Of a DNA stretch of 22,189 bases, positions 7,924-22,189 are shown one piece after another. The DNA is taken from positions 1 to 22,189 of IMG/VR virus record IMGVR_UViG_3300007541_000254; one strand, 5' to 3'. Source of the DNA: a virus. A program made the translations under genes and the position numbers. The notes under the pieces are model-generated. The model was not told the DNA's origin. It saw only the letters and a list, made by a program, of their open reading frames with translations, and made no database searches. Position 1 is the stretch's first letter; every line of letters begins with the position of its first letter.

Positions 7924-8543
7924 TACACCACCTGACTTAGTGTTCTAATACGCAGGACAGAGCCGGAATGCCGATCCTTAGAATCCTTGGCTTCCATATC
8001 TTGCAGGGCCTGCTGAAACCGCTGCTCCCAAAGCGGGAATCGCTTTTCATCTTTCAGATAAGGTTGGGCTTCGATCAACGACCCGAACAGGAATACATCC
8101 GGGTTATTGGTAAACAAGCTGTGATTCGTGGTGGATAGCGCAGCAGGCTGCTTGTAGTAGAGGAAATCAAAGGTCAGGCCACTGGCAGGCGTTCCACCAA
8201 TCACCAGGTTTTCCCCCTCGATGGTGAAGGCTTCCGGGGTACTGGTTGTGGTGGATCCCATGTATCTGGCGTAAAAATCTTCAGGCGGAATGTAGGATAG
8301 CTCTGTCTTTGTAGAGCCATTCATGAATAGGCGCTTACCCTCCAGGTAGGACGATGGCAGACTGACAGTTGCCGTGCCCGTGCTGGTCACAGTAGCAATG
8401 GTCTCCATCTCTCGTACACGCAAACGCCGGTAGATGCGCCGCTCAGCGAGCGTGATGAAATCCGGAATGATAGTGGTTAGGTCGCTGCGATGGAGCCAGC
8501 TTGCGACTGCTGACGATAATGCTGTGTAGGTATTAAGGGCCAT
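7923..8543 (-). CDS. Head-to-tail adaptor protein (P22 gp4-like)
   Basis: The 206-residue product starts MALNTYTALSSAVASWLHRS and continues with DLTTIIPDFITLAERRIYRR, the hallmark N-terminal helices of the phage adaptor family that docks under the portal and recruits the nozzle. The C-terminal region has the usual helical stretch (FLFGSLIEAQPYLKDEKRF) near residues 150-170. The N-terminal match runs from the first residue, so ATG 8543 is the right start although no strong Shine-Dalgarno precedes it. The start lies 67 bases inside the aminotransferase gene. The stop overlaps the nozzle start (TAATG). Confidence 0.78.
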   Translation of the reverse strand: MALNTYTALSSAVASWLHRSDLTTIIPDFITLAERRIYRRLRVREMETIATVTSTGTATVSLPSSYLEGKRLFMNGSTKTELSYIPPEDFYARYMGSTTTSTPEAFTIEGENLVIGGTPASGLTFDFLYYKQPAALSTTNHSLFTNNPDVFLFGSLIEAQPYLKDEKRFPLWEQRFQQALQDMEAKDSKDRHSGSVLRIRTLSQVV

Positions 8544-9478
8544 ATCGCGTCAATTACCTTGTCTGGATTGATGTGCGGACCAGTAGGAATCAGATAATGA
8601 TTCCGCCAGATCCACTCCGAAACCGGAAATTTTCCACCCTGCTTGAAGGCAGGCTGCAGATTCAGTGGAGGGAACATAGGACGAGTCTCAACGTTGTCAG
8701 GCCGTTTAGTGGCCTGAACAGCAAACATCCATCTACCCCGCCCAGGAAGGCAAGACGCGAATCTTGAAGAATTGTGAAGGCGTGCTGAGAGAAGATCCTG
8801 CACCCGCTCAAGCTGGGCACACGCCACCGCAGCCTGCAGGTTTGTCAGTCGAAAATTAAGGCCAGGGATATTATGGCAGTAGTTAAGATCAAACCCCCCA
8901 TCCCGCCACGACCGGGCATTGCCCAACTGACCGGACAAAGCCCCCCCTTCCCCGCATGATATAACCTTGTTTGCGAAAAAGCTATATGCCGCCAGTTGAC
9001 CCCGTTGCGGTACTATCCCAAACGCTTGACAGGAATCCTCCAGGACCGGCACCCCGAACTTGGTGAAATCGCCGGCATCCAGACCAAGCAAATGAACCGG
9101 CATGATTGCCTTGGTCCGGTGGCCCACCATATGAACTACTTCGTTCTGGTCCATGCCCCAAGTGTCCGGGTGTACATCCACCAGGACCGGGGTGGCTCCC
9201 AATGCCAATACCACGGATGCCGTGGTCCCGAACGTCAGATTAGGCACCAAAACTTCGTCGCCAGGTCCTATTCCAAGGCTTTTAAGTCCCAGATAGAGAG
9301 CTGCTGTGCCCGAGGTACATACTATGGTCTCCCGGCCCAGAAAACGACTTAACTCCGCTTCCAGCCTGGATACAAATGCTCCCCTGTGGCTTAACTCTTT
9401 CTTATGGATTGCCTCTGATATATAAGCTAATTCATTCCCAGATAAATCCAGATCAACCAGCTTTACGTCGGATGTCAT
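8477..9478 (-). CDS. DegT/DnrJ/EryC1/StrS-type sugar aminotransferase
   Basis: This family transfers an amino group to a keto nucleotide sugar using PLP. The 333-residue product has the fold type I landmarks: SGTAAL at residues 56-61, the PLP-contact LEDSCQAFG with D148, and the Schiff-base lysine K171 in SFFANKVISCGEGG. The C-terminal substrate part is recognisable (PPLNLQPAF, then NHYLIPTGPHINPDKVIDAI). The family usually runs about 370 residues, so this copy is compact. Its last 22 residues are read out of frame across the start of the adaptor gene and look like an added tail. It overlaps the cytidylyltransferase gene by 26 bases and likely acts with it. The keto-sugar precursor enzyme (a 4,6-dehydratase) is not in the window. 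Confidence 0.85.
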   Translation of the reverse strand: MTSDVKLVDLDLSGNELAYISEAIHKKELSHRGAFVSRLEAELSRFLGRETIVCTSGTAALYLGLKSLGIGPGDEVLVPNLTFGTTASVVLALGATPVLVDVHPDTWGMDQNEVVHMVGHRTKAIMPVHLLGLDAGDFTKFGVPVLEDSCQAFGIVPQRGQLAAYSFFANKVISCGEGGALSGQLGNARSWRDGGFDLNYCHNIPGLNFRLTNLQAAVACAQLERVQDLLSARLHNSSRFASCLPGRGRWMFAVQATKRPDNVETRPMFPPLNLQPAFKQGGKFPVSEWIWRNHYLIPTGPHINPDKVIDAIWPLIPTQHYRQQSQAGSIAAT

Positions 9479-10136
9479 CTTCTTCGCAAGTTCCTATTTG
9501 TACTTCAATTACTTGCAAAATATCATCCGTTTCGTTCGCCAGTTGATGCACCTTTCCTGCAGGTACATGGGTTGGCTGGCCACCGTCTTCCCAAAACCAC
9601 CATTCCTGCCTAAAATCATGCACTTGTTCAGAAGTAGCCCGCCCGGGCAATATCTTCATTACCTTGACCTTGAGCTTAGGGCTCTCCCACAGCACATCAT
9701 AAGATCCCCATAGTCTTTGTACTGTCTTGACCCTATTTACCAGGCCGCTGGAACTCTGCACCTTCGCACCCAAGTTAAACAGAGTGCCGATACCCATCTC
9801 CCGGCAAAGCACGGTCTCAGGCGCATTCTCAGGGCTTCTATCACCACCGTTCGCAAAGATTGTTGGCTTGTGCTCACGAATCGCCTGATTAACACTGCCA
9901 TCGGTATCATCTACCGGCACAACCTTATCCACATACTTCAAACTCTGCAGGATCTTCGCCCGCTCATCCCAGGACATAAATACATATCCTTTTTTACGAA
10001 TAAGCCACTCATCAGAATTCAACGCGACGATCACTTTTCCTAACTGAGCGGCCCTGGAGATGTATTCGAGATGTCCGCCATGAAGCGGATCAAAACCACC
10101 ACTAACCATCACCGAAACCGAAACAGATGCTTCCAT
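9453..10136 (-). CDS. Cytidylyltransferase fused to a compact PMI-type cupin
   Basis: I start at ATG 10136, backed by GGAAGGA five bases upstream; the open frame extends 20 codons further. Residues 1-145 are a nucleotidyltransferase of the TagD/RfaE2 type: GGFDPLHGGH at 13-22 holds the HxGH nucleotide-binding motif, followed by MSWDERAKIL and a distal SSSGLV resembling the family's second signature. Residues about 150-227 resemble the cupin of mannose-6-phosphate isomerase type II, with GQPTHVPAGKVHQLAN matching G(X)5PXG(X)2H(X)3N and then IEVQIG and EEDDIRR. The first cupin motif is degenerate (HDFRQE, with Phe for the second His), and the usual loop between motifs is missing. It probably activates a phosphorylated sugar or polyol with CTP; the cupin's activity is uncertain. 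Confidence 0.78.
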   Translation of the reverse strand: MEASVSVSVMVSGGFDPLHGGHLEYISRAAQLGKVIVALNSDEWLIRKKGYVFMSWDERAKILQSLKYVDKVVPVDDTDGSVNQAIREHKPTIFANGGDRSPENAPETVLCREMGIGTLFNLGAKVQSSSGLVNRVKTVQRLWGSYDVLWESPKLKVKVMKILPGRATSEQVHDFRQEWWFWEDGGQPTHVPAGKVHQLANETDDILQVIEVQIGTCEEDDIRRKAG

Positions 10137-10927
10137 GTCAATCCTTCCGCCATTTCTGCTGGAGTCCACTGCGTATAAGCTAAATCCCAAGCCCACTGAT
10201 GCCTATCAGGTTTCCAAGGGTTTTCAAGATCGTCCAAACACCGATTAGCACAAGCGAGAGCCATACTGCCAATATCATCCACGAATACTGGGATACCTTC
10301 GATAAGACCTTCAACCGCCGTATTCGACGAGTAGGTAACGACTGCATGAAATCTACTCCAATCAATCGGCCCAGTAGAGTATTCACAACCGCTCAGCGGC
10401 GGTAGTTGCGCTTTCGGATGCGGCCTGAACCAAACCGTCCTATGTGAAATATCGTTTAGTTTTCTGGCAGTGCGCTGCAGCCAGTCTAAGTGGTCAGAGT
10501 TTTCCACACTCGCATCCCAAGGGACTTGAGCTGCGAGAAGAATGTCTTGTCCTTCGCTTTTCCAGGGCTGGAGTTGGGTTGCGAGCTTAACCCATCTGTC
10601 TGCCGGACTGTGCTGGTTGCGGAAGTCTGCCCTGCCGTTGAGTCCATCGAAGCCCGCTGCGTAGTAGTTTTCTTGCGAGTCGCCCCTTTTGACGTAGCCT
10701 GTTTCAAGTACGATGCATTTCCTTTTCGCTTTCCGTTGCTCATCTATGACTCTCCCCCGATGCTTGGAAAAAGGAACTGCAGATTTATAGACGCCAAACA
10801 CAACGCCTACATCTGATTCCGAATATTGCTCTACATTGAATAGCCGTTTCGGATCAGGACAACCATCGTAGAACGCCACCAACACACGGTCATGGACCGG
10901 ATCACCACTCAGATACACATGAATCAT
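10109..10927 (-). CDS. Capsule-polysaccharide (KpsC/KpsS-like) glycosyltransferase-type protein
   Basis: The ATG 10927 overlaps the previous stop (ATGA). The 272-residue product has two segments recalling capsule-polysaccharide synthesis and export proteins with a GT-B-like fold: VWFRPHPKAQLPPL at about 165-178, and TYSSNTAVEGLIEGIPVFVD in the last third, where a Ser-Asn-Thr loop followed by EGLxxGxPV is typical of the donor-binding half. A middle part with WVKLATQLQPWKSEG precedes it. In capsule systems such proteins add CMP-Kdo or related sugars. It sits next to a cytidylyltransferase, which fits a CMP- or CDP-activated donor, but that link is inference. Confidence 0.58.
   Translation of the reverse strand: MIHVYLSGDPVHDRVLVAFYDGCPDPKRLFNVEQYSESDVGVVFGVYKSAVPFSKHRGRVIDEQRKAKRKCIVLETGYVKRGDSQENYYAAGFDGLNGRADFRNQHSPADRWVKLATQLQPWKSEGQDILLAAQVPWDASVENSDHLDWLQRTARKLNDISHRTVWFRPHPKAQLPPLSGCEYSTGPIDWSRFHAVVTYSSNTAVEGLIEGIPVFVDDIGSMALACANRCLDDLENPWKPDRHQWAWDLAYTQWTPAEMAEGLTWKHLFRFR
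10142..10148 (-). promoter_or_regulatory. Ribosome binding site fixing the cytidylyltransferase start
   Basis: GGAAGGA on the minus strand lies five bases before ATG 10136. It supports that ATG over the in-frame candidate at 10196, which would overlap the upstream gene by 88 bases and add 20 residues before the conserved domain. Confidence 0.65.
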
Positions 10928-11469
10928 AGTCTGCGAATCACAACACGATTAACATCACCATCATATTCCTCTGTAGATCCTGGAAGGCTCCATTTGATGC
11001 TGGGACTGGCATAAACCACGAGGCGCTTTGCCAAACTGCACAACTTCTTCCAGGTTTCGTTTACGTCCAGCGTAGTAATCTGAGTACACCAAACCACTTC
11101 ATGCTGTTTGCTGTAATTGAATACACTTTTGACTTCAAAATATGGCCCGAACAAGCATGTTGCCGCTTCTATCGCATCATCCCATACATCTATGCCGTGA
11201 TATTCGGCTTGCCCACGCACATAAGGATATAGCCAACCACCGTAGCATCCCACATCCAGCACATCCCCCTTCAACTCCGGCAGGAATTTCTGCACAGTAG
11301 GCCAGATTTGACGCGTCATCTTGTCCCGCCACGGCGCCAACACCTGTAACCCTGTTCTGGCTGCTATGTCTGCCGCTTTGCCTTGTATGGGATTGCTGAG
11401 AGAATTTCGTAAATATTCCGCAAGCACATCATCGGCAGACATAGACCAGGAACATCCCTTCCGTGCCAT
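10924..11469 (-). CDS. SAM-dependent methyltransferase-like protein, 181 aa
   Basis: Motif I of class I methyltransferases is clear: DVLDVGCYGGWLYPYV at about residues 69-84, with a second strand ending in HGIDVWDDAIEAA (acidic residue after beta-2). Downstream VVWCTQITTLD marks the usual motif IV position. The C-terminus is short for the fold and ends VNRVVIRRL. ATG 11469 has no obvious Shine-Dalgarno and overlaps the preceding methyltransferase gene by 41 bases; ATG 11442 (MSADDVLAEY) is an alternative. It likely methylates a small molecule or sugar of the glycan cassette. The substrate is unknown. Confidence 0.68.
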   Translation of the reverse strand: MARKGCSWSMSADDVLAEYLRNSLSNPIQGKAADIAARTGLQVLAPWRDKMTRQIWPTVQKFLPELKGDVLDVGCYGGWLYPYVRGQAEYHGIDVWDDAIEAATCLFGPYFEVKSVFNYSKQHEVVWCTQITTLDVNETWKKLCSLAKRLVVYASPSIKWSLPGSTEEYDGDVNRVVIRRL

Positions 11470-11998
11470 GACTAATGCCGCTAACCTTGCTTACTTGACA
11501 ATTCCGTTCTTCCACCCGCCAGCCGCAACCTTCCAACAACAGATCAAATTCTTCTGGCGTATAGTGCCGCTGATGCGGGTAATCATCCCCGGCAAACTTC
11601 TCAGGAAAGAACTTGTAACGTTCTTCGTTGGGTACGCTGCAGATCAATTTACTCGCTGCTCCCCGTGCTTTTCGCAGGAAATGCTGCGGCGACTTTAGAT
11701 GCTCAATAGTCTCAAATGAGACTATCGTATCGCATTCTGGCAGATCGCAGACTTCCAGATTATCTACGATGTATTCCGGCCCGGCGAACTTGTCTATGGC
11801 CCACATGATTGCCCCGGAATCAATATCTATGCCCGTTACCTGCAAGCCAACACTGTATAGATATCCCGTGCCATAACCACACCCGCAAGCCGCATCTACC
11901 GTCCTGCCTTCCGCTTCTCTAGCAGCAAACTTGTAACGCTCTTGATGGTCCAGCCGTGCTTCTTCAAACTTTGTTACCCACTGTCTAGTTTGATCCAC
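11429..11998 (-). CDS. Class I SAM-dependent methyltransferase, 189 aa
   Basis: GTG 11998 is preceded by AAGGGA seven bases upstream. Motif I is VDAACGCGYGTGYL at residues 34-47, followed by VTGIDIDSGAI (SAM ribose contact) and CDTIVSFETIEHL, the motif IV of the Methyltransf_11/23-type families. The C-terminal HYTPEEFDLLLEGCGWRVEE is the usual final helix-strand in this group. These enzymes often methylate sugars, lipids or small metabolites, and the family is also common in LPS and capsule gene clusters. It overlaps the preceding gene by 14 bases and the next methyltransferase by 41. Acting on a cassette sugar is inferred from the neighbourhood. Confidence 0.8.
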   Translation of the reverse strand: MDQTRQWVTKFEEARLDHQERYKFAAREAEGRTVDAACGCGYGTGYLYSVGLQVTGIDIDSGAIMWAIDKFAGPEYIVDNLEVCDLPECDTIVSFETIEHLKSPQHFLRKARGAASKLICSVPNEERYKFFPEKFAGDDYPHQRHYTPEEFDLLLEGCGWRVEERNCQVSKVSGISHGTEGMFLVYVCR

Positions 11999-12311
11999 CT
12001 AGAATCCCTTTCGCGTAATCACCAACCCCTGAAAGTGCTCCCCTCCATCCCGCCATAACCTGATCCAGTGAAGGCTTGCTACGACCCTTTACCAGCCCCA
12101 TCTTCTTGCCCATGGCATCCGCTACCGTCATCGCCATCAATCCTGGGGCTCGTAGCGGGTTATCCGCTGTCTGTTCTCTGGCAAACAACTCCCTGTCAAG
12201 CTCAGCCAATCTCGGTTGACTCGGATGATTGGGTGGCAATTGTGCTCGCAGCCGGCGAATCATAGCCCACTTCTGAAGCAGATCAGGAGGGGCTGTATTG
12301 AAGTCGGTCAC
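11985..12311 (-). CDS. Phage protein of unknown function, 108 aa
   Basis: GTG 12311 overlaps the stop of the 48-residue gene (GTGA). The product is helical with a Pro-rich linker (QLPPNHPSQPRLAELDRELF) and a Gly/Ala-rich C-terminus ending YAKGILGGSN; the middle (LMAMTVADAMGKKMGLVKG) is amphipathic. It has no enzyme motif or membrane span. With its upstream neighbour it looks like a phage-core gene pair inside the enzyme block, because the C-terminus resembles small virion or ejection-type proteins in composition. I do not recognise a named family. Confidence 0.6.
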   Translation of the reverse strand: MTDFNTAPPDLLQKWAMIRRLRAQLPPNHPSQPRLAELDRELFAREQTADNPLRAPGLMAMTVADAMGKKMGLVKGRSKPSLDQVMAGWRGALSGVGDYAKGILGGSN

Positions 12312-12454
12312 TTTTTCTTCTTCTTCAGAATGCCGGTTTTCTTATCGGCCTGGTTAAACTCTTTTGACACCTTTGCAGGCGGGCACGAATCGTATAACGC
12401 CCCATGCGCGCAAGCTGCCATGAACCTAGCCTGCTTCTTGGATTTGCTGGGCAT
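12308..12454 (-). CDS. Small basic phage protein, 48 aa (MPSKSKKQ family)
   Basis: ATG 12454 to TGA 12308 gives 48 residues, starting MPSKSKKQARFMAACAHGA, with KVSKEFNQADKKTG near the end and a poly-lysine tail. The opening and the KEFNQADK motif match a small protein I recall as widespread in tailed phages, often near virion genes, with no known function. An AGGA-type site (GGAGGAATC on the minus strand) lies just upstream. The gene overlaps the glycosyltransferase upstream by 29 bases and the 108-residue gene by four. Two cysteines (15 and 24) are present. Its position suggests that the enzyme block is split by original phage genes. Confidence 0.75.
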   Translation of the reverse strand: MPSKSKKQARFMAACAHGALYDSCPPAKVSKEFNQADKKTGILKKKKK

Positions 12455-13229
12455 TTTGATTCCTCCAGTACGGTTCACTACGATCAATCACAAGATCCTT
12501 ACCCGTGCTTCTGGAATGCTTGCGCGGGCCTTTCCTGTGATCCATGTAGGTTCCTAGAACACTGTTTATAAAAACATGCATGGTGCCTTGCGGGAGATGC
12601 GCCGCCAGGTTTACAAACTGATCCTGTGCGCCGCTGCTTGCCCGCAATTCGTCAAACGCTTCGCAGTCATGCCATATCTTATGCGTCATCCAGGCCCCGA
12701 ACAGGAAATAAGCCTTATATGCCCGCATGAATCGTTCGCAAAGGGGATGCTTACTGTTCCATCCGAGACACCCGGATTCCGTGTAATACCATCTCTCCCC
12801 ACTAGCCGTATGTCGCCCTAGATAACAACACAACTTGTCATCCGGTAATAACTCATCAAGAAACATATAAGGCACGGCACTGTGAGTAACGCTATCAGCA
12901 TCCAGCCAGAAAACTTTACCGCCATACTGCTCCAAGGCATGAGCCTGCATGAAAGGCTTACGGGCCATACGAGCATCCAGATTGATGTTGTACTGTCCGT
13001 CAGGCAGAATACCCTTCTGAATGTCGAAGGTCAGCGCATCCATAAAGTCTTTGATATGCCTTACCTGCCAGTAATCTTCCCACCCCTGCATCCGTCTGAA
13101 TACATCATCACCTTCGTAATACACCACCAGCCTGACGTTATCCGGCCAGAATTGCTTGAAGGTACGGATGAACTCTTTGCCGTATAGCTCGTATCCTTCT
13201 TCTGTGAAACTTGTAATGACAGTGTTCAT
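12426..13229 (-). CDS. GT-A-like glycosyltransferase with DAD motif, 267 aa
   Basis: ATG 13229 overlaps the previous stop (ATGA) with AAGGAA upstream. The N-terminus starts with a Rossmann-like strand (MNTVITSFTEEGYELYGKEF) and the nucleotide-sugar and metal motif is KVFWLDADSV at residues 105-114, with DAD at 110-112. A later segment QDQFVNLAAHLPQGTMHVFI and GTYMDHRKGPRKHSRS near the C-terminus are typical of this phage-associated group. The donor is probably a nucleotide sugar and the acceptor is unknown. Its neighbour is a second GT-A protein of different sequence. Confidence is good for the fold and low for the substrate. Confidence 0.72.
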   Translation of the reverse strand: MNTVITSFTEEGYELYGKEFIRTFKQFWPDNVRLVVYYEGDDVFRRMQGWEDYWQVRHIKDFMDALTFDIQKGILPDGQYNINLDARMARKPFMQAHALEQYGGKVFWLDADSVTHSAVPYMFLDELLPDDKLCCYLGRHTASGERWYYTESGCLGWNSKHPLCERFMRAYKAYFLFGAWMTHKIWHDCEAFDELRASSGAQDQFVNLAAHLPQGTMHVFINSVLGTYMDHRKGPRKHSRSTGKDLVIDRSEPYWRNQNAQQIQEAG

Positions 13230-13933
13230 GCTACTTCCTTAGTTTTATGTTGCGGAACCATATCATGAAGCATTGCCTGCCATTCGTCGGCAAACTCTAC
13301 CTGCTCATAACCGTCAATGAACGGCGCGCCCAGCGTCCAGTGTACCAACTTGGCATTCTTGTTCGGCGGATATTCCTGTACCAGATGATTCCATTCGACC
13401 GGCAGATCTCCAATCAAACATTCATCCGGTAGCCATTTGAACTGGTGCAATTCAGCCCCTGATGCCCTACTAATCCATGTCGGAGTCAGGAACTCCCGGC
13501 AACGCCAAGTATTCAACATCATCACACTGCTTTGATTCTTACGCGGGTAGTTTCTGTTACCCTGGTTAAAGAACTTAGTAGTGACTTTCGTTCGGTAGTC
13601 ATGCTTTACCACCAACACAGCTTTATCAAACTGCGTGTGTGTATATTTCCATAACTCCGTGATATCGCCACGCGCCATCATATCTGAACCATCTATCCAC
13701 AGAATCCACTCTGCCGGATGCCGCCCCTGAGTCTCTATCCAAGGCGCCAGAAACCGAGTACGGCTAAAGTCAGTAGCATCTTCTGGCCTGCGACGCACAC
13801 CATATTTCTCCAGCAACGGTAGCGCCATTGGGGTAATGGATATTGGCTGCGTTGCCTGCTTGATGATGGACTGACAACAAACATGAAACCCCAAGGCTTC
13901 CTTGGGATCATAACCCATGTAAATCTTACGCAT
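13226..13933 (-). CDS. GT-A-like glycosyltransferase, DxxD motif, 235 aa
   Basis: The product opens MRKIYMGYDPKEALGFHVCC, resembling GT8-type enzymes in which an early YD precedes a strand. FSRTRFLAPWI at about 56-66 and WILWIDGSDMMARGD at 76-90 follow, with D81 and D84 in the place of the DxD metal-binding pair. VMMLNTWRCREFL and, near the end, LVHWTLGAPFIDGYEQ match the later part of the fold. It would transfer a hexose or similar from a nucleotide sugar. It is adjacent to and coupled with the DAD-type glycosyltransferase, so the two may act in sequence on one glycan. Confidence 0.72.
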   Translation of the reverse strand: MRKIYMGYDPKEALGFHVCCQSIIKQATQPISITPMALPLLEKYGVRRRPEDATDFSRTRFLAPWIETQGRHPAEWILWIDGSDMMARGDITELWKYTHTQFDKAVLVVKHDYRTKVTTKFFNQGNRNYPRKNQSSVMMLNTWRCREFLTPTWISRASGAELHQFKWLPDECLIGDLPVEWNHLVQEYPPNKNAKLVHWTLGAPFIDGYEQVEFADEWQAMLHDMVPQHKTKEVA

Positions 13934-13956
13934 TATTTATCCAGTCCCGCTGAAAC

Positions 13957-14907
13957 TCAACTGTAGGCAATGCACTGCTCACATACTGTTCCGCTCACAT
14001 CCTTCTTGAGATGCGCCGCCCTGAGCTTTATAAACTCTGGGGAATTCCAGGCTTCCATGAACGTCTGCGTTTTCAAGTCTCCCATCCGCCAATTGGCGTT
14101 CGCGTCGAAGCAGCAAGCCGACAGATACCCCTCTGCGGTAACGTGACCTTCCGTAAATGCGGACCAGCAGGGTAGTGGGTCTCGCAGAGCTTCAAGCCTT
14201 CCCTGGTTACCTGCGGTGGGACGATAACCCAGTTCTTCTTCTCGCTGAGTGGCAAAAGAGCCCATGCTGTAAAGTGGTAGCCAATAATGCTGGTCCACGA
14301 AAGGTACAACCATCCGGCTAAGCAACGATTCCATGCGAGCCTGCTGTTCTCCGTCAAAACGGATACTACTTGCATATAATCCGCATTTGTAGTTTCCATC
14401 ATCGCGTACCTTCTTCGCCGACCGTATGTTCTCCAAGGCCCTATACCAGTTCTTTGCCTTGACCCCCATGATGTCTTCAAACTGCTCAGGATCCGCCGCA
14501 TTCACGGACCATTTCAGGCTATCCAGTCCTGCATCCATTACTCGTTTGACGGATTCAGGATCAGCAAGACTTGCATTGCTGGTCAGAAACACATACGGAA
14601 ACTCGATCCCCTTACACCACCGAATGCAATCCACCAACAAATCTACGTTCATAAAGGATTCGCCAAGATAGAACACACCAATTTCTTCTACCCCGGATTC
14701 ACGCATTTCCAGCGTCATCTTACAAAACAGCCGGAAATCCATATCCTTTTTGGGCTGGTGCTCCCGTGTTCTGAGCGCACAGAAACCGCATAAATAATTA
14801 CATCTGGGGCTAACTTCAATCTTGACTGACTTAGGTGCCGGCAGAATGCTGCTCAGATACTCGCCACTAACTTTTGTGATGGCGTCGATTCTCTCCGTGA
14901 TACCCAA
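13957..14907 (-). CDS. Radical SAM protein with SPASM-like C-terminus, 316 aa
   Basis: The [4Fe-4S] motif CNYLCGFC (C36, C40, C43; CX3CX2C) follows a short lead and a KIEVSP strand, as in radical SAM enzymes. A C-terminal Cys-rich part (CW, then ACCFDANANWRMGD, and CEQC at 309-312) resembles a SPASM auxiliary cluster domain. The start is TTG 14907, supported by AGGAG nine bases upstream; no in-frame ATG lies before the cluster motif. Radical SAM/SPASM enzymes modify peptides (RiPPs, sactipeptides) or carry out chemistry on sugars and small molecules. No candidate precursor peptide is seen nearby, so a glycan-related substrate is the contextual guess. It overlaps the TPR-glycosyltransferase gene by 55 bases. 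Confidence 0.84.
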   Translation of the reverse strand: MGITERIDAITKVSGEYLSSILPAPKSVKIEVSPRCNYLCGFCALRTREHQPKKDMDFRLFCKMTLEMRESGVEEIGVFYLGESFMNVDLLVDCIRWCKGIEFPYVFLTSNASLADPESVKRVMDAGLDSLKWSVNAADPEQFEDIMGVKAKNWYRALENIRSAKKVRDDGNYKCGLYASSIRFDGEQQARMESLLSRMVVPFVDQHYWLPLYSMGSFATQREEELGYRPTAGNQGRLEALRDPLPCWSAFTEGHVTAEGYLSACCFDANANWRMGDLKTQTFMEAWNSPEFIKLRAAHLKKDVSGTVCEQCIAYS

Positions 14908-16310
14908 TTTTTGAGTCTCCTGCTTACGTCATCAATAGGCCAATTAAACTTCACATCCTGCCGGAACATCTCTATAGAGTTGTACCAGGGAATCTTCTCG
15001 CCTTGCATTTGATAGAACCATCGTGGCTTTGCAGGGGCTAATACCCAGCATTCCTTGCCCAGCGCGCCAGATAAATGTACTACCGCCGTGGTCACACTGA
15101 TAACCAGGTCCAGTTCCGCTACCAATGCCGCAGTTTCATCGTAGTCCCACGCTTCTGCCGCCCTGCGCCAATGATGAATCTTGACACCGTGTTTCCCGTG
15201 AAACGCTGCAATCTCATCCCGTGCATCTTTGTATTGGAGACTGATCCAATCCGCATCCACCGACTTGAGGATTGGTGCCAACGCTTCCAGTGACAGGCTG
15301 CGCTTCTGAGTACCTGTTTTCGGAATCCCACCTGTCCAGGCTATCCCTATCTTCGGCTTACTTCCAAGGCTATCCAGCAATGCTCGCCACTGTATCCGGC
15401 GTTCCGTATCCGCAACGAGATATGGCGTTCCTGGAAATTCCTTCGCATTCCGCCGAAACAGTCTTCCAAGACTTCCGAAAGCAATTCGTCCGTCAATCTG
15501 ATAATCATCGGTCCACGGCACTTCATTCTTATAATAAGTGCCATACACTTTAGCTTTCGGGAATGTCCGTTCGAACAAGCCCTGTAGTCGCGCATCCACT
15601 TCTAGGATGGGATTCTCGATCAGCGATAGCGCATCCGGCAGAATCGTACCGAAGCTGATAACATCTCCGATACCCTGCTCCTGGTAGAGCACTATCGTAT
15701 TCGCGTGTTTGCCGTCCCATCTTGGTTCTGGAGGATCGCAGTAAACCCGTTCCTTACGTTCCTTGATATGCCCAAGAGCCGCTTCGTAACACTCCCATCC
15801 CGTTGCCCAATCTTGAACCATCAGACAAGCGAGAGCTTTGTTGTCCAAAGCCTGAATCATCCCAGGCTTGGCTTTCAATGCCAGATCAGCATACTTGATG
15901 GCTTCGTGCGGCTGGCACTTATGAATCGCGCACAGGCTCAGATTGTTGTAAGCAAATGGATCATCGGGCTCTGCTTCCAATGCGGATCTAAAACAGTTTT
16001 CCGCTTCCTGCAGATCATCGGGATTAGCCCATCGTTCAGAGAAGCACATCCCCATGTTGTTTAATGGTTCCGCCCGATGCGGAACCATGTAATGCGCCAT
16101 CCGGTTCAGGTTATATGCCAACCCCAACTGTTCATGCTGCAGAGCGATATAACCTAACAGGAAGATTGCTGCTGATTCGTTGAAATTGATTGCCAGGACT
16201 TCATTAGCAAGTTTCCACGCTTTCTCGTAATCTTTTGCCTCTACTGCCGCCTTGGCTTCGTTCAACTTCCCTAAATATGAAATCCGCTGGTTGTCTTGAG
16301 ATATTTCCAT
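14853..16310 (-). CDS. TPR protein fused to a GT9/GT41-like glycosyltransferase, 485 aa
   Basis: Residues about 10-180 hold tetratricopeptide repeats (for example EPLNNMGMCFSERW, DPFAYNNLSLCAIH, MIQALDNKALACLMVQD). From about 205 a GT-B half follows: NTIVLYQEQGIGDVISFG, then KPKIGIAWTGGIPKTGTQKR at 318-337, and LDLVISVTTAVVHLSGALGK near 400-419, the donor-site signature of heptosyltransferase-type (GT9) and O-GlcNAc transferase-like enzymes. TPR-GT fusions recognise protein or peptide acceptors through the TPR arm, so a protein substrate is plausible. The ATG overlaps the preceding gene by 40 bases and lacks a clear Shine-Dalgarno. It is the first enzyme of the block after the capsid genes. 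Confidence 0.82.
   Translation of the reverse strand: MEISQDNQRISYLGKLNEAKAAVEAKDYEKAWKLANEVLAINFNESAAIFLLGYIALQHEQLGLAYNLNRMAHYMVPHRAEPLNNMGMCFSERWANPDDLQEAENCFRSALEAEPDDPFAYNNLSLCAIHKCQPHEAIKYADLALKAKPGMIQALDNKALACLMVQDWATGWECYEAALGHIKERKERVYCDPPEPRWDGKHANTIVLYQEQGIGDVISFGTILPDALSLIENPILEVDARLQGLFERTFPKAKVYGTYYKNEVPWTDDYQIDGRIAFGSLGRLFRRNAKEFPGTPYLVADTERRIQWRALLDSLGSKPKIGIAWTGGIPKTGTQKRSLSLEALAPILKSVDADWISLQYKDARDEIAAFHGKHGVKIHHWRRAAEAWDYDETAALVAELDLVISVTTAVVHLSGALGKECWVLAPAKPRWFYQMQGEKIPWYNSIEMFRQDVKFNWPIDDVSRRLKNWVSRRESTPSQKLVASI
14917..14921 (-). promoter_or_regulatory. Ribosome binding site supporting the TTG start of the radical SAM gene
   Basis: AGGAG on the minus strand lies nine bases before TTG 14907. 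It is the best Shine-Dalgarno in the area and favours this rare start codon, giving a complete N-terminal strand before the iron-sulfur cluster motif. Confidence 0.5.
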
Positions 16311-16656: not shown

Positions 16657-17628
16657 TTACGAAGTCGTGCAAGTAGTCACTTTGCCGCTTGACTTCTCAT
16701 TGCGCGCTTCCAGCGTGGCTTCTGCAACCAGATGCCACTTCTCAGAGTCGCCGGTTTTGGCCAGCTTCTCTTTCGTGACACCACGCAGATAAGCCACCGA
16801 CCAATAATCCATATCCAGGACCAGCACGGTTGCATCCCGACTAAACCTGGAAGGAACAATGGTCAGCGTGCCGAAGTCACTCACGTACACATCGGCTGCG
16901 CCCTGGATGGTGCCCGGTCGCCGACCGGTCACATCATTGTATTGCGTGGCAATGCCAGCAAACGCAGATGCCCGTTGCTTGTTGAACGGACCCACCAGCA
17001 CGGTTCTGGGCTCACCACCTTGCGTCCAGCAAGCCTTGATGATGGCTTTCAGGTGCGCTTCAGTGAAGGTTCCAGACGCAGAGTTATCAGTCGGGGCAGT
17101 CACGGTCCCGGAGATGAATCCAGGAGTCGTGGGTGAACCACCGGAACCGATATCCGTGCGGTTTGTGAACAGCCAGGATTCCACAGAAGCCAGAGTCCTC
17201 CCCGCCGCAGTCGTGCCGACGGTAGAACCCTTGTTCTGCGACAGGCTGGATTCCAGGTCACGCAACAGTTCCTTGCCGCGCTTGGCAAGCTGATACGCAA
17301 CTTCAGAATCGCGGCCCGCTTTATCAACCGTTTCCATCGTGCCGGAAATCTGAATGACTTTCTTCAGGATCTGGCAGTAATTACCAAGCCGCGTGGTAGG
17401 CGGCGAAGTAGCGGTCGTGGAATCATCCCCTTCCGGGTTCGCGTTCGCAGCATTTGCCGCGACAAGTGCATCGGTCTGCCATTCGTGATAGCGTTGCTTC
17501 GCAGTAGTCCGCGCAGCACGGGACATGAATGGGCGTTCCGTGGGACTGATATCGTAAATCGTATCAGTCAGATCTTCCCTTACGCCAATTGCTTCGAATT
17601 GGGTAAGCGTTCCTGCAGTAACAGCCAT
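16657..17628 (-). CDS. Major capsid protein (SU10-type, DUF5309-like)
   Basis: The 323-residue product begins MAVTAGTLTQFEAIGVREDL. DISPTERPFMSRAAR and HEWQTDALVAANAANANPEG in the first 70 residues are hallmarks of the SU10-type HK97-fold major head proteins. GNYCQILKKVIQISGTMETV and the long helix AYQLAKRGKELLRDLE (about 111-126) correspond to the E-loop and spine-helix region; TVLVGPFNKQRASAF and VLVLDMDYWSVAYLRG are typical of the A- and P-domains. Position directly after the scaffold, an excellent ribosome binding site and the terminator behind it fit a very highly expressed gene. The protein forms the capsid shell. Confidence 0.9.
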   Translation of the reverse strand: MAVTAGTLTQFEAIGVREDLTDTIYDISPTERPFMSRAARTTAKQRYHEWQTDALVAANAANANPEGDDSTTATSPPTTRLGNYCQILKKVIQISGTMETVDKAGRDSEVAYQLAKRGKELLRDLESSLSQNKGSTVGTTAAGRTLASVESWLFTNRTDIGSGGSPTTPGFISGTVTAPTDNSASGTFTEAHLKAIIKACWTQGGEPRTVLVGPFNKQRASAFAGIATQYNDVTGRRPGTIQGAADVYVSDFGTLTIVPSRFSRDATVLVLDMDYWSVAYLRGVTKEKLAKTGDSEKWHLVAEATLEARNEKSSGKVTTCTTS

Positions 17629-18723: not shown

Positions 18724-18996
18724 TTACCTTCTCCAAATAGCAGAGATGCCGCGTTTCTCCTGCTCTATCTGGAGTTTCGCCAGCTTCCCGGTTTCGATAT
18801 AGGATTGCAGGGCCTGCCGGAATAACTTGGTAATCTTGAACAACCGCCAATAGTCTTCCCGCTGATCCTTGCTTTCCGCCATTTCCCACCTCTGAATCGT
18901 TGCGGCTTCAATCTCATCCAAAGCCTGCTTGAGAAGGGGCTGCTCCAATAAAAAACGGGCTTCTTCAGCCCGTTGAATCTCCTGCTCTGTATCCAT
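18724..18996 (-). CDS. Small helical phage protein, 90 aa, upstream of scaffold
   Basis: The sequence is almost entirely helical and charged: MDTEQEIQRAEEARFLLEQP, then LKQALDEIEAATIQRWEM, REDYWRLFKITKLFRQALQS and ETGKLAKLQIEQEK. The layout RAEEARFLLEQP..KQALDEI...W..A..KDQRE...L..........ETGKLA recurs in small proteins that many phages encode near portal and scaffold genes, and it matches that pattern well. Its role is unknown; a chaperone- or head-assembly function has been guessed for relatives. The stop is adjacent to the scaffold start (TAAATG). Confidence 0.68.
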   Translation of the reverse strand: MDTEQEIQRAEEARFLLEQPLLKQALDEIEAATIQRWEMAESKDQREDYWRLFKITKLFRQALQSYIETGKLAKLQIEQEKRGISAIWRR

Positions 18997-19374: not shown

Positions 19375-19379
19375 CTCCT
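19375..19379 (-). promoter_or_regulatory. Ribosome binding site favouring ATG 19367
   Basis: AGGAG on the minus strand lies seven bases before ATG 19367 and four before GTG 19370, so the ATG is the better start. It overlaps the stop codon of the upstream repeat-protein gene. Confidence 0.55.
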
Positions 19380-20523
19380 AATGCATTAACAACCATTCAT
19401 CATCGTCATCAAGATCGTCAGGCACCTTCTTGACCTTGATCTTGTTCCGGCCAACCACTTCCACATATTCCGCTTCCAGCCCAGCTTCAAAGCTGGTCAA
19501 CTTCGGCATCTTGACCAAGACTGCCTTGGGCGTGAATGGGATCTTTGCTTCCTGGATGATTTCTTCTTCTTCATCCTCCACGAAGATATAGCGCGGAACA
19601 CGTCTGCGATGCCTCCGCCCACCAGCCGCAACCTTCGCCGCCACGGAAGGCGGCACCACAATGCTGGAAACAGCTACAGCAGTGGAAATGCCTTCTGCGT
19701 TGCCAACCGCATAGGCTTCCGTTAGCGAAACCGCATTCGCAGTGGAAGTGCCTTCCGCATTGCCTATGGCCGCTGCACCGCTGAGACTGGTGCCTACAGC
19801 CTGGGCATCCGACGTACCCGCAGCATTACCTACGGCATACGCTTCTACCCTGCTTGTTGCCGTTGCCGTACTGGTTCCGGCTGCTACCGCTATTGCTCGC
19901 GCTTCCGCCTGTGCAACCGCCAATGCAACAGCCGTTCCACCAGACAGACCTACCGCATAGACTTCCGTGAACGCACTTGCCGTTGCAGTAGATGTGCCTT
20001 CAGCATTACCTACTGCCTGCTTCTCTATCGTCGCAGTTTCGCTAGCCGCCTGGGCATCTGATGTGCCTGCTGCATGACCGACGGCATACGCATCTACACG
20101 AGATGTAGCAACAACCGTTGCCAATCCCGCAGAAACACCTACTGCATATGCTTCTGTAAGACTGACTGCATTGGCGGTTGCAATACCCTCTGCATTGCCA
20201 ACCCCTACAACACTGGCTACACCAACCGCATTGACTGTTGATGTACCTTCCGCATTGCCGACCGAATAAGCCGCTGTCTGACCAGATGCACTTACCGTGC
20301 TGGTGCCGGACGCATTGCCGACTGCGTAAGCGTAAACAAGGCCAACTGCATTAGCCGTGCTGACGCCAGCGGCTGTGCCAACGGAACCACTGATCCCTGC
20401 TGAAAACCCGCCAACAAGACCTAAATGGGGAAGCGGAGCCGGGTGGCCCGCCGATCCGGGCAGATCCGCCGCCGCCAGCAGCTCGGTGCTGGGGAGAAGC
20501 GGTTGATAGGACCAACCGGCCAT
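19378..20523 (-). CDS. Twelve-repeat Ala/Ser/Thr-rich protein, 381 aa, probable virion appendage
   Basis: Residues 48-292 are twelve tandem units of about 20 residues with consensus VGNAEGTSTANAVSLTEAYA; ten units are exactly 20 long, one is 22 and one 23. Small residues alternate with exposed Ser, Thr, Asn and Glu, so each unit could be one coil of a beta-solenoid. The N-terminal 47 residues are Pro/Gly/Leu-rich. The C-terminus has a basic cluster (GRRHRRR), an acidic run (EDEEEE) and a compact KKVPDDLDDDDEWLLMH end. It sits with other beta-rich virion-type genes before the scaffold. A fiber, decoration or appendage role is likely. It is very Ser/Thr-rich, which makes it one possible target for the glycosyltransferases. 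No known adhesin domain is seen. Confidence 0.7.
   Translation of the reverse strand: MAGWSYQPLLPSTELLAAADLPGSAGHPAPLPHLGLVGGFSAGISGSVGTAAGVSTANAVGLVYAYAVGNASGTSTVSASGQTAAYSVGNAEGTSTVNAVGVASVVGVGNAEGIATANAVSLTEAYAVGVSAGLATVVATSRVDAYAVGHAAGTSDAQAASETATIEKQAVGNAEGTSTATASAFTEVYAVGLSGGTAVALAVAQAEARAIAVAAGTSTATATSRVEAYAVGNAAGTSDAQAVGTSLSGAAAIGNAEGTSTANAVSLTEAYAVGNAEGISTAVAVSSIVVPPSVAAKVAAGGRRHRRRVPRYIFVEDEEEEIIQEAKIPFTPKAVLVKMPKLTSFEAGLEAEYVEVVGRNKIKVKKVPDDLDDDDEWLLMH
19648..20382 (-). repeat. Twelve 60-base in-frame tandem repeats
   Basis: The region encodes the 20-residue units of the 381-residue protein with a 60-base period, except for two units of 66 and 69 bases. Copies differ from each other at many positions, so the array is old or under selection at the protein level. 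It is a coding repeat, not a CRISPR array. Confidence 0.85.
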
Positions 20524-20870: not shown

Positions 20871-21713
20871 TTACCCTCCGAGCGCGTAGGCAGCGATGTT
20901 CGGGTTATCGACCGTCCCCGAGTGCTGGGCGCGCACATAGACACCCGTCCCAGATGGGACGGGGAATTCCACGCCCGCCTGAATTGGCGGGTTGCCCAGC
21001 GCCTCGGCTGACGAACTGGTCACCAGCATATCGCTGATGATGATGTTAAAATTCGATCCGTCCCCGACTGCCAGATCTACGGCAATCGCGGCGTTGCCCC
21101 AGGTTGTGTCGGCAGTAGTGATCTGATACCCCACCTGCCACCACCACACCCGCGAACTCGTAGTGCCTAGAGATGTCCAGGCACCCTCGGAAGTGGTGCC
21201 CGGCGTGACCGACGTTCCCGCGGATGCGGTGACCCCATAGGCTTCAACGAATGAACCCTTGCGAATCACCGACGGATTGGCGGGTTGCTGCAGGATCTGC
21301 ACGCCGACGCGAAATGCCGTGGTGACGCTGCCCCACGCCCTCGCCCCGATTGTCGAGCCCGGCGGAACGTAGAGCGGAAAATAGTAATACACACCGGCCC
21401 GGCCCGCCGTCAGAGAGCCCGCGCCACCGACCAGCAGGTCGGGAATCCGCACGGTATAGCTGGTGCCGCCCGCTTCGTCCACGCCAATATCCATCGCGTA
21501 GTTGCGGGATTGCGAACTGGCGCCCGATGTGTGAACCCAGATCAGCACACCATAGGCTGCATCACTCGTCGGTGTGCTGATCACGTTCGCCCAGGACCCC
21601 TTGGCACCGGTCGCAGACGTGACCGACGTTCCCAGAGTAGAACTTGGCCTGCTCGTCCCCCACGAGTTAGTGAACCCGCCGAAGGTGTTAGCCCCCACCG
21701 GAACGTGCAACAT
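20871..21713 (-). CDS. Two-domain beta-sandwich virion protein, 280 aa
   Basis: GAGGTG lies five bases before ATG 21713, which overlaps the previous stop (ATGA). The protein is a tandem duplication: residues about 25-135 and 165-275 share the order GTSVT, a strand with VLIWVHT or WWWQVGY, DIGVDEAGG or DLAVGDGSN, IPDLLV or ISDMLV, then YVPPGSTIGARA or PVPSGTGVYVRA. Repeated strands rich in Gly, Ser and Thr suggest jelly-roll or immunoglobulin-like domains. Such proteins often decorate capsids or build tail appendages, and the neighbouring genes fit that. The exact part is unknown. Confidence 0.62.
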   Translation of the reverse strand: MLHVPVGANTFGGFTNSWGTSRPSSTLGTSVTSATGAKGSWANVISTPTSDAAYGVLIWVHTSGASSQSRNYAMDIGVDEAGGTSYTVRIPDLLVGGAGSLTAGRAGVYYYFPLYVPPGSTIGARAWGSVTTAFRVGVQILQQPANPSVIRKGSFVEAYGVTASAGTSVTPGTTSEGAWTSLGTTSSRVWWWQVGYQITTADTTWGNAAIAVDLAVGDGSNFNIIISDMLVTSSSAEALGNPPIQAGVEFPVPSGTGVYVRAQHSGTVDNPNIAAYALGG

Positions 21714-22189
21714 CAGGCCACCTCGATATAGGTCAGGCAGCCATCGACGCTGATGGCCGCCGACAGTTCCAGGTTAAGCAGCGTGTTGGTGCCGGTTTGG
21801 AACCAGCCGGCGGGATTGAACGGCAGCGCAAAGCCAGTATTCGCCACCAGGTTCATTTGTCCAGTCAGCGCGGTGCCGCTGGCCCCGGATTCAAACCTTA
21901 CATTGACCGTGCCAGCCGAAACGAGGAATGCAGAGACTACCCGGATCTTCTTGGAAGCCACCGCCGCAACCAGGGTGTTGTCGCCAGAGCTTGCCGCGTC
22001 GATGATCGCGAACTTGGGTGTGACCACCGTGCCAGAATCCGTCATCTGCGTCGATTCAAGGCTGGCCTGCACCGGCATCGGCGCGGCCACCGAGGCATCC
22101 ACGGCGCTGCCGTCCACACCCCATGATGGCTTCACCCGTGTATAGCAGACGCTCGAAATATCATCGGCGGCGAACGCAGGACCGGCACC
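21713..22189 (-). CDS. Beta-rich virion protein, 5' end cut by window edge
   Basis: The frame stays open to the right edge, so the gene starts outside; an in-frame GTG at 22135 is internal to the recognisable sequence. The readable 158 residues begin GAGPAFAADDISSVCYTRVK, an opening (FAADDI..V.Y.RVK...G.DG) I recall from many phage structural proteins near the portal, and continue with beta-rich sequence such as IDAASSGDNTLVAAVASKKI. The C-terminus ends SVDGCLTYIEVA. The stop overlaps the next start. A structural role is likely, but its location in the particle cannot be determined. Confidence 0.6.
   Translation of the reverse strand, partial: GAGPAFAADDISSVCYTRVKPSWGVDGSAVDASVAAPMPVQASLESTQMTDSGTVVTPKFAIIDAASSGDNTLVAAVASKKIRVVSAFLVSAGTVNVRFESGASGTALTGQMNLVANTGFALPFNPAGWFQTGTNTLLNLELSAAISVDGCLTYIEVA

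Follow-up and report, generated by a model that had tools for sequence, protein, structure and literature searches.

A twelve-unit, 20-residue repeat protein with a predicted beta-solenoid array and an acidic-leucine tail in an environmental phage record

The described structure most similar to the predicted model of the protein reported here is that of the curli subunit CsgA of Pontibacter korlensis (R15.5, PDB 8c50), a member of a family in which each strand motif of the curlin repeat has a conserved Asn or Gln pointing inward at its ends (PMC10192328). Among phage proteins, a described neighbor of the repeat type is podophage GP4 fiber I (gp80, PF23140): in two of our loci (L057 and L072; loci are numbered with the prefix L), the gene just before that of the repeat protein encodes a match to this family, and a homologue of the L072 protein lies just before the repeat gene of phage Mae-JY04. 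The window analyzed here is the entire IMG/VR record IMGVR_UViG_3300007541_000254 (22,189 bases). Its repeat protein belongs to a type that is common in environmental phages and was seen in many unrelated phages, including at least one in culture, yet has no Pfam entry and only one PHROG, which is unannotated.

A protein-level array of twelve units

The repeat gene is a single ORF on the minus strand, with the following parts:
19378..20523, minus strand: repeat-protein ORF, uninterrupted, with an ATG start; 381 aa plus stop
20383..20523, minus strand: N-terminal segment, aa 1-47 (MAGWSYQPLL...), nonrepetitive, low pLDDT
19648..20382, minus strand: twelve-unit array, aa 48-292, consensus approximately VGNAxGTSTANAVSxxEAYA; predicted beta-solenoid
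19381..19647, minus strand: C-terminal region, aa 293-381, from the translation, with a basic GGRRHRRR near its start and low pLDDT
19381..19425, minus strand: acidic-leucine tail VPDDLDDDDEWLLMH, aa 367-381, of the same kind as tails on other phage proteins

The units begin at residues 48, 68, 88, 108, 128, 148, 171, 191, 211, 231, 253, and 273; nine of the eleven spacings are 20 residues, one is 23, and one is 22. Identity at a lag of 20 residues was 0.404, compared with 0.139 in shuffled sequences (z = 11.5), and was also high at lags of 40 and 60. Pairs of units were on average 47% identical, and residues 1 to 47 and 293 to 381 were nonrepetitive. An earlier note on this DNA had described one consensus recurring twelve times at a strict 20-residue period over 19378-20523. 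The twelve units, their periodicity, and the ORF itself were recovered, but two spacings depart from the strict period, the units fill only residues 48 to 292 (19648-20382), and the exact consensus of that note occurs once, in unit 11.

Tandem Repeats Finder detected no tandem array in the DNA of the repeat, and residues common to two units use the same codon in only 32% of cases. The array is thus repetitive at the protein level only and does not resemble the product of recent expansion in the DNA.

Within units, numbered V1-G2-N3-A4-E5-G6-T7-S8-T9-A10-N11-A12-V13-S14-L15-T16-E17-A18-Y19-A20, residue size alternates. Across the twelve units, Gly, Ala, and Ser occupy 102/120 even positions versus 16/120 odd positions, and charged residues, Asn, Gln, and aromatic residues occur at 1 even and 42 odd positions, an even/odd difference that was reached by 0 of 5000 within-unit shuffles. 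This alternation is consistent with strands that pack tightly on one side. The odd face displays Thr7, Thr9, and Asn, and Ser8 lies on the small-residue face; the Ser and Thr residues are about equally divided between faces (29 odd, 26 even). The proposal that small residues point inward and Ser, Thr, and Asn outward therefore stands for the small/large alternation but only partly for Ser and Thr.

Distribution and predicted fold of the repeat type

Viral contigs were scanned with a DNA pattern of two consecutive units, which returned at least 120 stretches, and ORFs were kept if their lag-20 identity was raised and three or more of their spacings measured 20, 40, or 60 residues. The 143 loci collected (120 of them from the unit-pattern matches listed) contained 50 ORFs with 20-residue repeats, the window's included; the kept ORFs had 4 to 53 unit matches each. 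When 511 units from 49 loci were combined in a profile, its near-invariant small or Thr positions were the same as those of the window units, which carry the Gly2, Ala/Ser4, Gly6, Thr7, Ser8, and Thr9 of the phage GxAxGTST 20-residue type. The cultured Microcystis phage Mae-JY04 encodes such repeats in a hypothetical gene of 626 codons (lag-20 z = 8.2). The window protein aligned with that of L143 at an E-value of 3.6e-21 (BLAST, SEG off), although E-values among Gly/Ala/Ser-rich repeats can be inflated, so that common descent of all such arrays is not established.

A similar N-terminus, mostly MADFGIA..PIAAFPISG, recurs in a set of proteins that includes those of L053, L143, L099, L128, L107, and L065, and a Trp-containing C-terminus is found in the same set and in L066. 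The L053 repeat protein matched phrog_23524 (PHROGs v4, function not annotated; E = 3e-6), a family matched by 5 of the 14 aligned relatives of the repeat protein. The window protein itself matched neither this nor any other PHROG profile at E ≤ 1, and its best Pfam line was DUF1604 at an E-value of 0.69.

The whole window protein as a query returned nothing by tblastn in phages or in a relatives search of viral contigs, and queries with one relative and with an idealized repeat were likewise without matches; low-complexity filtering probably masks the repeats in such whole-protein searches. PDB sequence searches with the alignment and with the window protein yielded nothing relevant, a profile of the relatives retrieved nothing from genome contigs, and no match was found for the C-terminal region (aa 293-381). 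Bacterial and archaeal genomes, scanned with a three-unit pattern, gave at least 119 stretches, and none of the 119 listed encodes a phage-type repeat protein. Eleven ORFs from these listed stretches passed the repeat rule and were set aside by eye as other repeats or shadow frames (e.g., GPSLGSESVTPEGGRPRPRP).

An AF2 model of the window protein, built on a 15-row alignment, had a mean pLDDT of 59.6 and a pTM of 0.57. Confidence was low at both ends of the protein, and ten-residue blocks of the repeat region mostly fell between pLDDT 60 and 87, with two strands of 7 to 8 residues predicted per unit across the whole array. In VIA-align, this model of moderate confidence matched CsgA (8c50) with a Z score of 22.6 and an rmsd of 8.0 over 273 residues, and it matched EtpA with a Z score of 15.9 and an rmsd of 3.5 over 249 residues. 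CsgA was again the top match (Z = 23.7, rmsd 8.5) for a second model, that of the L053 protein, which had a low pLDDT of 48.6. Foldseek with the window model returned no match at E ≤ 0.001 either in the PDB, where CsgA had an E-value of 5.7, or among viral models. Structure prediction of the repeat region, which the earlier note had proposed as a check, thus gave two strands per unit and not disorder only. The beta-solenoid suggested in that note is moderately strengthened by strands throughout the array and by the CsgA match, with which the low-confidence L053 model agrees, and we consider it likely that the repeat region forms such a fold.

Gene neighborhood and the acidic-leucine tail

The repeat gene lies in a run of minus-strand genes that includes those for the head scaffold and capsid:
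21713..22135, minus strand: P0004, 140 aa, no match found
20871..21713, minus strand: P0003, 280 aa, 48% identical to its counterpart in MW202691.1
20523..20867, minus strand: P0002, 114 aa, 68% identical to its counterpart in MW202691.1
18999..19370, minus strand: next gene downstream of the repeat gene, 123 aa, no family
18724..18996, minus strand: 90-aa gene between the repeat module and the scaffold gene, with a homologue in L002
17641..18723, minus strand: head scaffolding protein (phrog_3927, E = 2.4e-54)
16657..17628, minus strand: major capsid protein (SU10_MCP, E = 7.8e-92; phrog_1328)
14853..16310, minus strand: TPR protein with a GT9-like glycosyltransferase domain, the enzyme that the earlier note tied to the repeat protein

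The counterparts of P0003 and P0002 occur in the same order in MW202691.1 (L148), a phage whose annotation includes a P22 coat protein. There, a 38-aa ORF directly after the P0002 homologue (L148:13203-13319) lacks repeats and starts with MWFFQPLL, which resembles the MAGWSYQPLL of the window protein. PDB sequence searches with P0003 and P0004 gave nothing relevant, and no relative of P0003 was confirmed in viral contigs. L053 and L143, both found through the repeat pattern, have capsid genes 41% identical to that of the window and carry the repeat gene within the structural region. In L053 it is flanked by an endolysin gene and a tail-fiber gene (phrog_18345, E = 1e-37), and the same endolysin, repeat, and tail-fiber order was read by eye from the ORF list of L143. 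Sphingobium phage Lacusarx (L191) encodes gp194 after a fiber I homologue; this protein has degenerate repeats (z = 3.5 at lag 18 and 2.5 at lag 20), and EDR motifs recur in series at its C-terminus.

The window protein ends in DDLDDDDEWLLMH. A regular expression for such tails (an acidic run and then hydrophobic residues at the extreme C-terminus), composed after examples had been seen, matched 8/45 repeat proteins, representing five sequence types, versus 4/3356 other ORFs, shadow frames included. One of the latter four, L003:1201-1803, has DAGxY repeats and is encoded upstream of a scaffold gene. The tail also occurs on other, unrelated repeats in L154:2111-5212 and L148:19333-20367. A second phage repeat type, approximately DAGxYxLxGQDAxL, is followed by a similar linker in L003:1201-1803, L151:2317-3123, and L154:2111-5212, with the acidic-hydrophobic tail in L003 and L154.

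A DNA-pattern search for the tail returned 36 stretches, of which many were not real ORF ends; the longer tail-ended ORFs mostly form one group of 155 to 157 aa (L155, L160, L170, and others), and the remainder include L175, L176, and L173. By eye, tail proteins precede scaffold-like genes in L057, L151, L148, L160, L170, L175, and L176; the scaffold position in MW202691.1 rests on the annotation of that record, and the scaffold-like gene of L160 is followed by one that matches a major head protein. In L160 and L057, the scaffold-like genes themselves matched no PHROG, and no phage match was obtained for the C-terminal part of the L057 protein or for the L160 tail protein. Judged from these sequences, the acidic-leucine tail appears to be common to phage proteins with unrelated repeats, often just upstream of scaffold genes, an association that we regard as new.

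Role of the protein and relation to known systems

We consider it about an even chance that the repeat gene encodes a virion-associated rod or fiber component of a podovirus-type phage, with the repeats as a spacer; we infer that the protein is present in virions, that it is anchored there, and that the repeats act as a spacer. Each 20-residue unit would fold into one coil with two short beta strands, and twelve coils would stack into a thin beta-solenoid with a core of nearly all Gly, Ala, and Ser and an outer face that bears Thr, Asn, Glu, and Tyr. This rod would lie between the short N-terminal segment and the C-terminal region, with its basic start and acidic-leucine end; one end of the rod would anchor on the particle, and the repeats would set its reach. 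Because the flanking pieces are mosaic and unit number is widely variable among relatives, the repeats look like an exchangeable spacer. The surface appendage of the earlier note is plausible only from gene context, namely the scaffold and capsid neighbors in the window and the fiber genes beside relatives.

Gene context is also compatible with an assembly or accessory factor that stays outside the mature virion; while the head is being assembled, its tail would touch the scaffold, portal, or capsid. In several loci (L057, L148, and L151), the gene for a tail protein immediately precedes scaffold-like and capsid genes, and tail proteins without such an array exist in L160 (157 aa) and L170 (155 aa), upstream of scaffold-like and head genes. 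Moreover, the only hypothetical proteins detected in virions of Citromicrobium phage RXM (L192) were Gp131 and Gp132 (PMC8953757), so that RXM_154, a hypothetical protein encoded beside a fiber I homologue, was apparently not detected, which also speaks against the virion rod. RXM_154 may, however, lie outside the repeat family, as its 20-residue periodicity is weak (z = 2.5), and we found no virion proteomics of any clear family member. (RXM virions are reported to stick together by their heads [PMC8953757].) An assembly factor would not usually carry long arrays whose length varies so much, and other family members sit among tail-fiber and lysis genes rather than beside a scaffold gene, and we consider this role rather unlikely. 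We also think it improbable that the repeats are a disordered or silk-like aggregating chain with no defined solenoid. Their Gly/Ala/Ser-rich composition and the AF2 confidence (moderate for the window protein, low for L053) would suit such a chain, but the regular small/large alternation extends over whole units, and every part of the array is predicted to contain strands, with block means reaching pLDDT 87.

The earlier note had further suggested, from high Ser/Thr density and co-occurrence with the TPR-glycosyltransferase, that the array is an O-glycosylated surface appendage modified by the enzymes encoded nearby, and this we judge very unlikely. It is true that Ser and Thr make up 22% of the array versus 8% of the remaining protein and that the enzyme block (8477-16310), which sits between phrog_3982 and phrog_2941 genes, encodes a DegT-type (sugar-type) aminotransferase, a cytidylyltransferase with a cupin-like domain, two methyltransferases, a SPASM radical SAM protein, and the TPR/GT9-like protein. 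In addition, a GT9-like gene directly follows the gene for an acidic-leucine-tail protein in L160 (6270-7633) and L170 (7395-8749), and L003 has both a TPR-glycosyltransferase and a tail protein of another repeat type. Against this, of 50 records searched, four yielded the TPR-glycosyltransferase (the window, L002, L003, and L017), versus 0/46 of the others, which were chosen for carrying 20-residue repeats; records may be fragments, so that a missing gene is no proof. Glycos_transf_2 (PF00535) was not enriched, occurring in 7/36 repeat or tail records versus 5/36 control virus records (4 over the cut-off in each). L002, the nearest relative with the enzyme, has a capsid protein 56% identical to that of the window, but its portal gene (as read) is followed directly by the 90-aa gene and then by that for the scaffold, and the repeat-gene slot is empty. 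A general coupling of the repeat protein to either glycosyltransferase was rejected on these counts, and the proposed O-glycosylated acceptor is not supported. High Ser/Thr content characterizes the repeat family as a whole, also in phages where no enzyme of this kind was detected, and about half of these residues lie on the predicted inner face. The assumed link to glycan enzymes is thereby removed.

If the protein is a virion rod, as in the reading we favor, a single structure would aid the annotation of a common class of hypothetical phage genes. The shared C-terminal tail offers a simple, testable marker for the way in which these proteins may be attached. A broader proposal, which we put forward as a long shot, is that the acidic-leucine tail serves diverse phages as a general tag for docking to the head or neck, where it would mount exchangeable rods built of 20-residue solenoids, DAGxY repeats, or other repeats, the 20-residue type being a thin Gly/Ala/Ser-cored solenoid distinct from curli.

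Like CsgA (8c50; PMC10192328), the window protein has a predicted beta-solenoid with two strands per coil, inward residues at alternating positions, and tandem units of approximately 20 residues whose number varies within the family. Unlike CsgA, it lacks inward Asn and Gln; its inner positions are Gly, Ala, or Ser, with only 1/120 charged, Asn, Gln, or aromatic. Its units are 20 residues long, whereas curlin units average 23, and CsgA is a secreted amyloid, whereas the window protein is a phage gene product without a curlin Pfam match. Because its sequence lacks the inward Asn and Gln that are conserved in curlin repeats, we conclude that the window protein is not a curlin. PF23140, the fiber I family found beside relatives, matched neither the window protein nor any other window protein scanned with Pfam. 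The proteins closest to the window protein in layout are the tail proteins L003:1201-1803, L154:2111-5212, and L148:19333-20367. Their repeat sequences and lengths differ, and no similarity to the window repeats was detected, yet all share with the window protein a series of repeats, a basic or glycine-rich linker, an acidic-hydrophobic tail, and a position near head genes.
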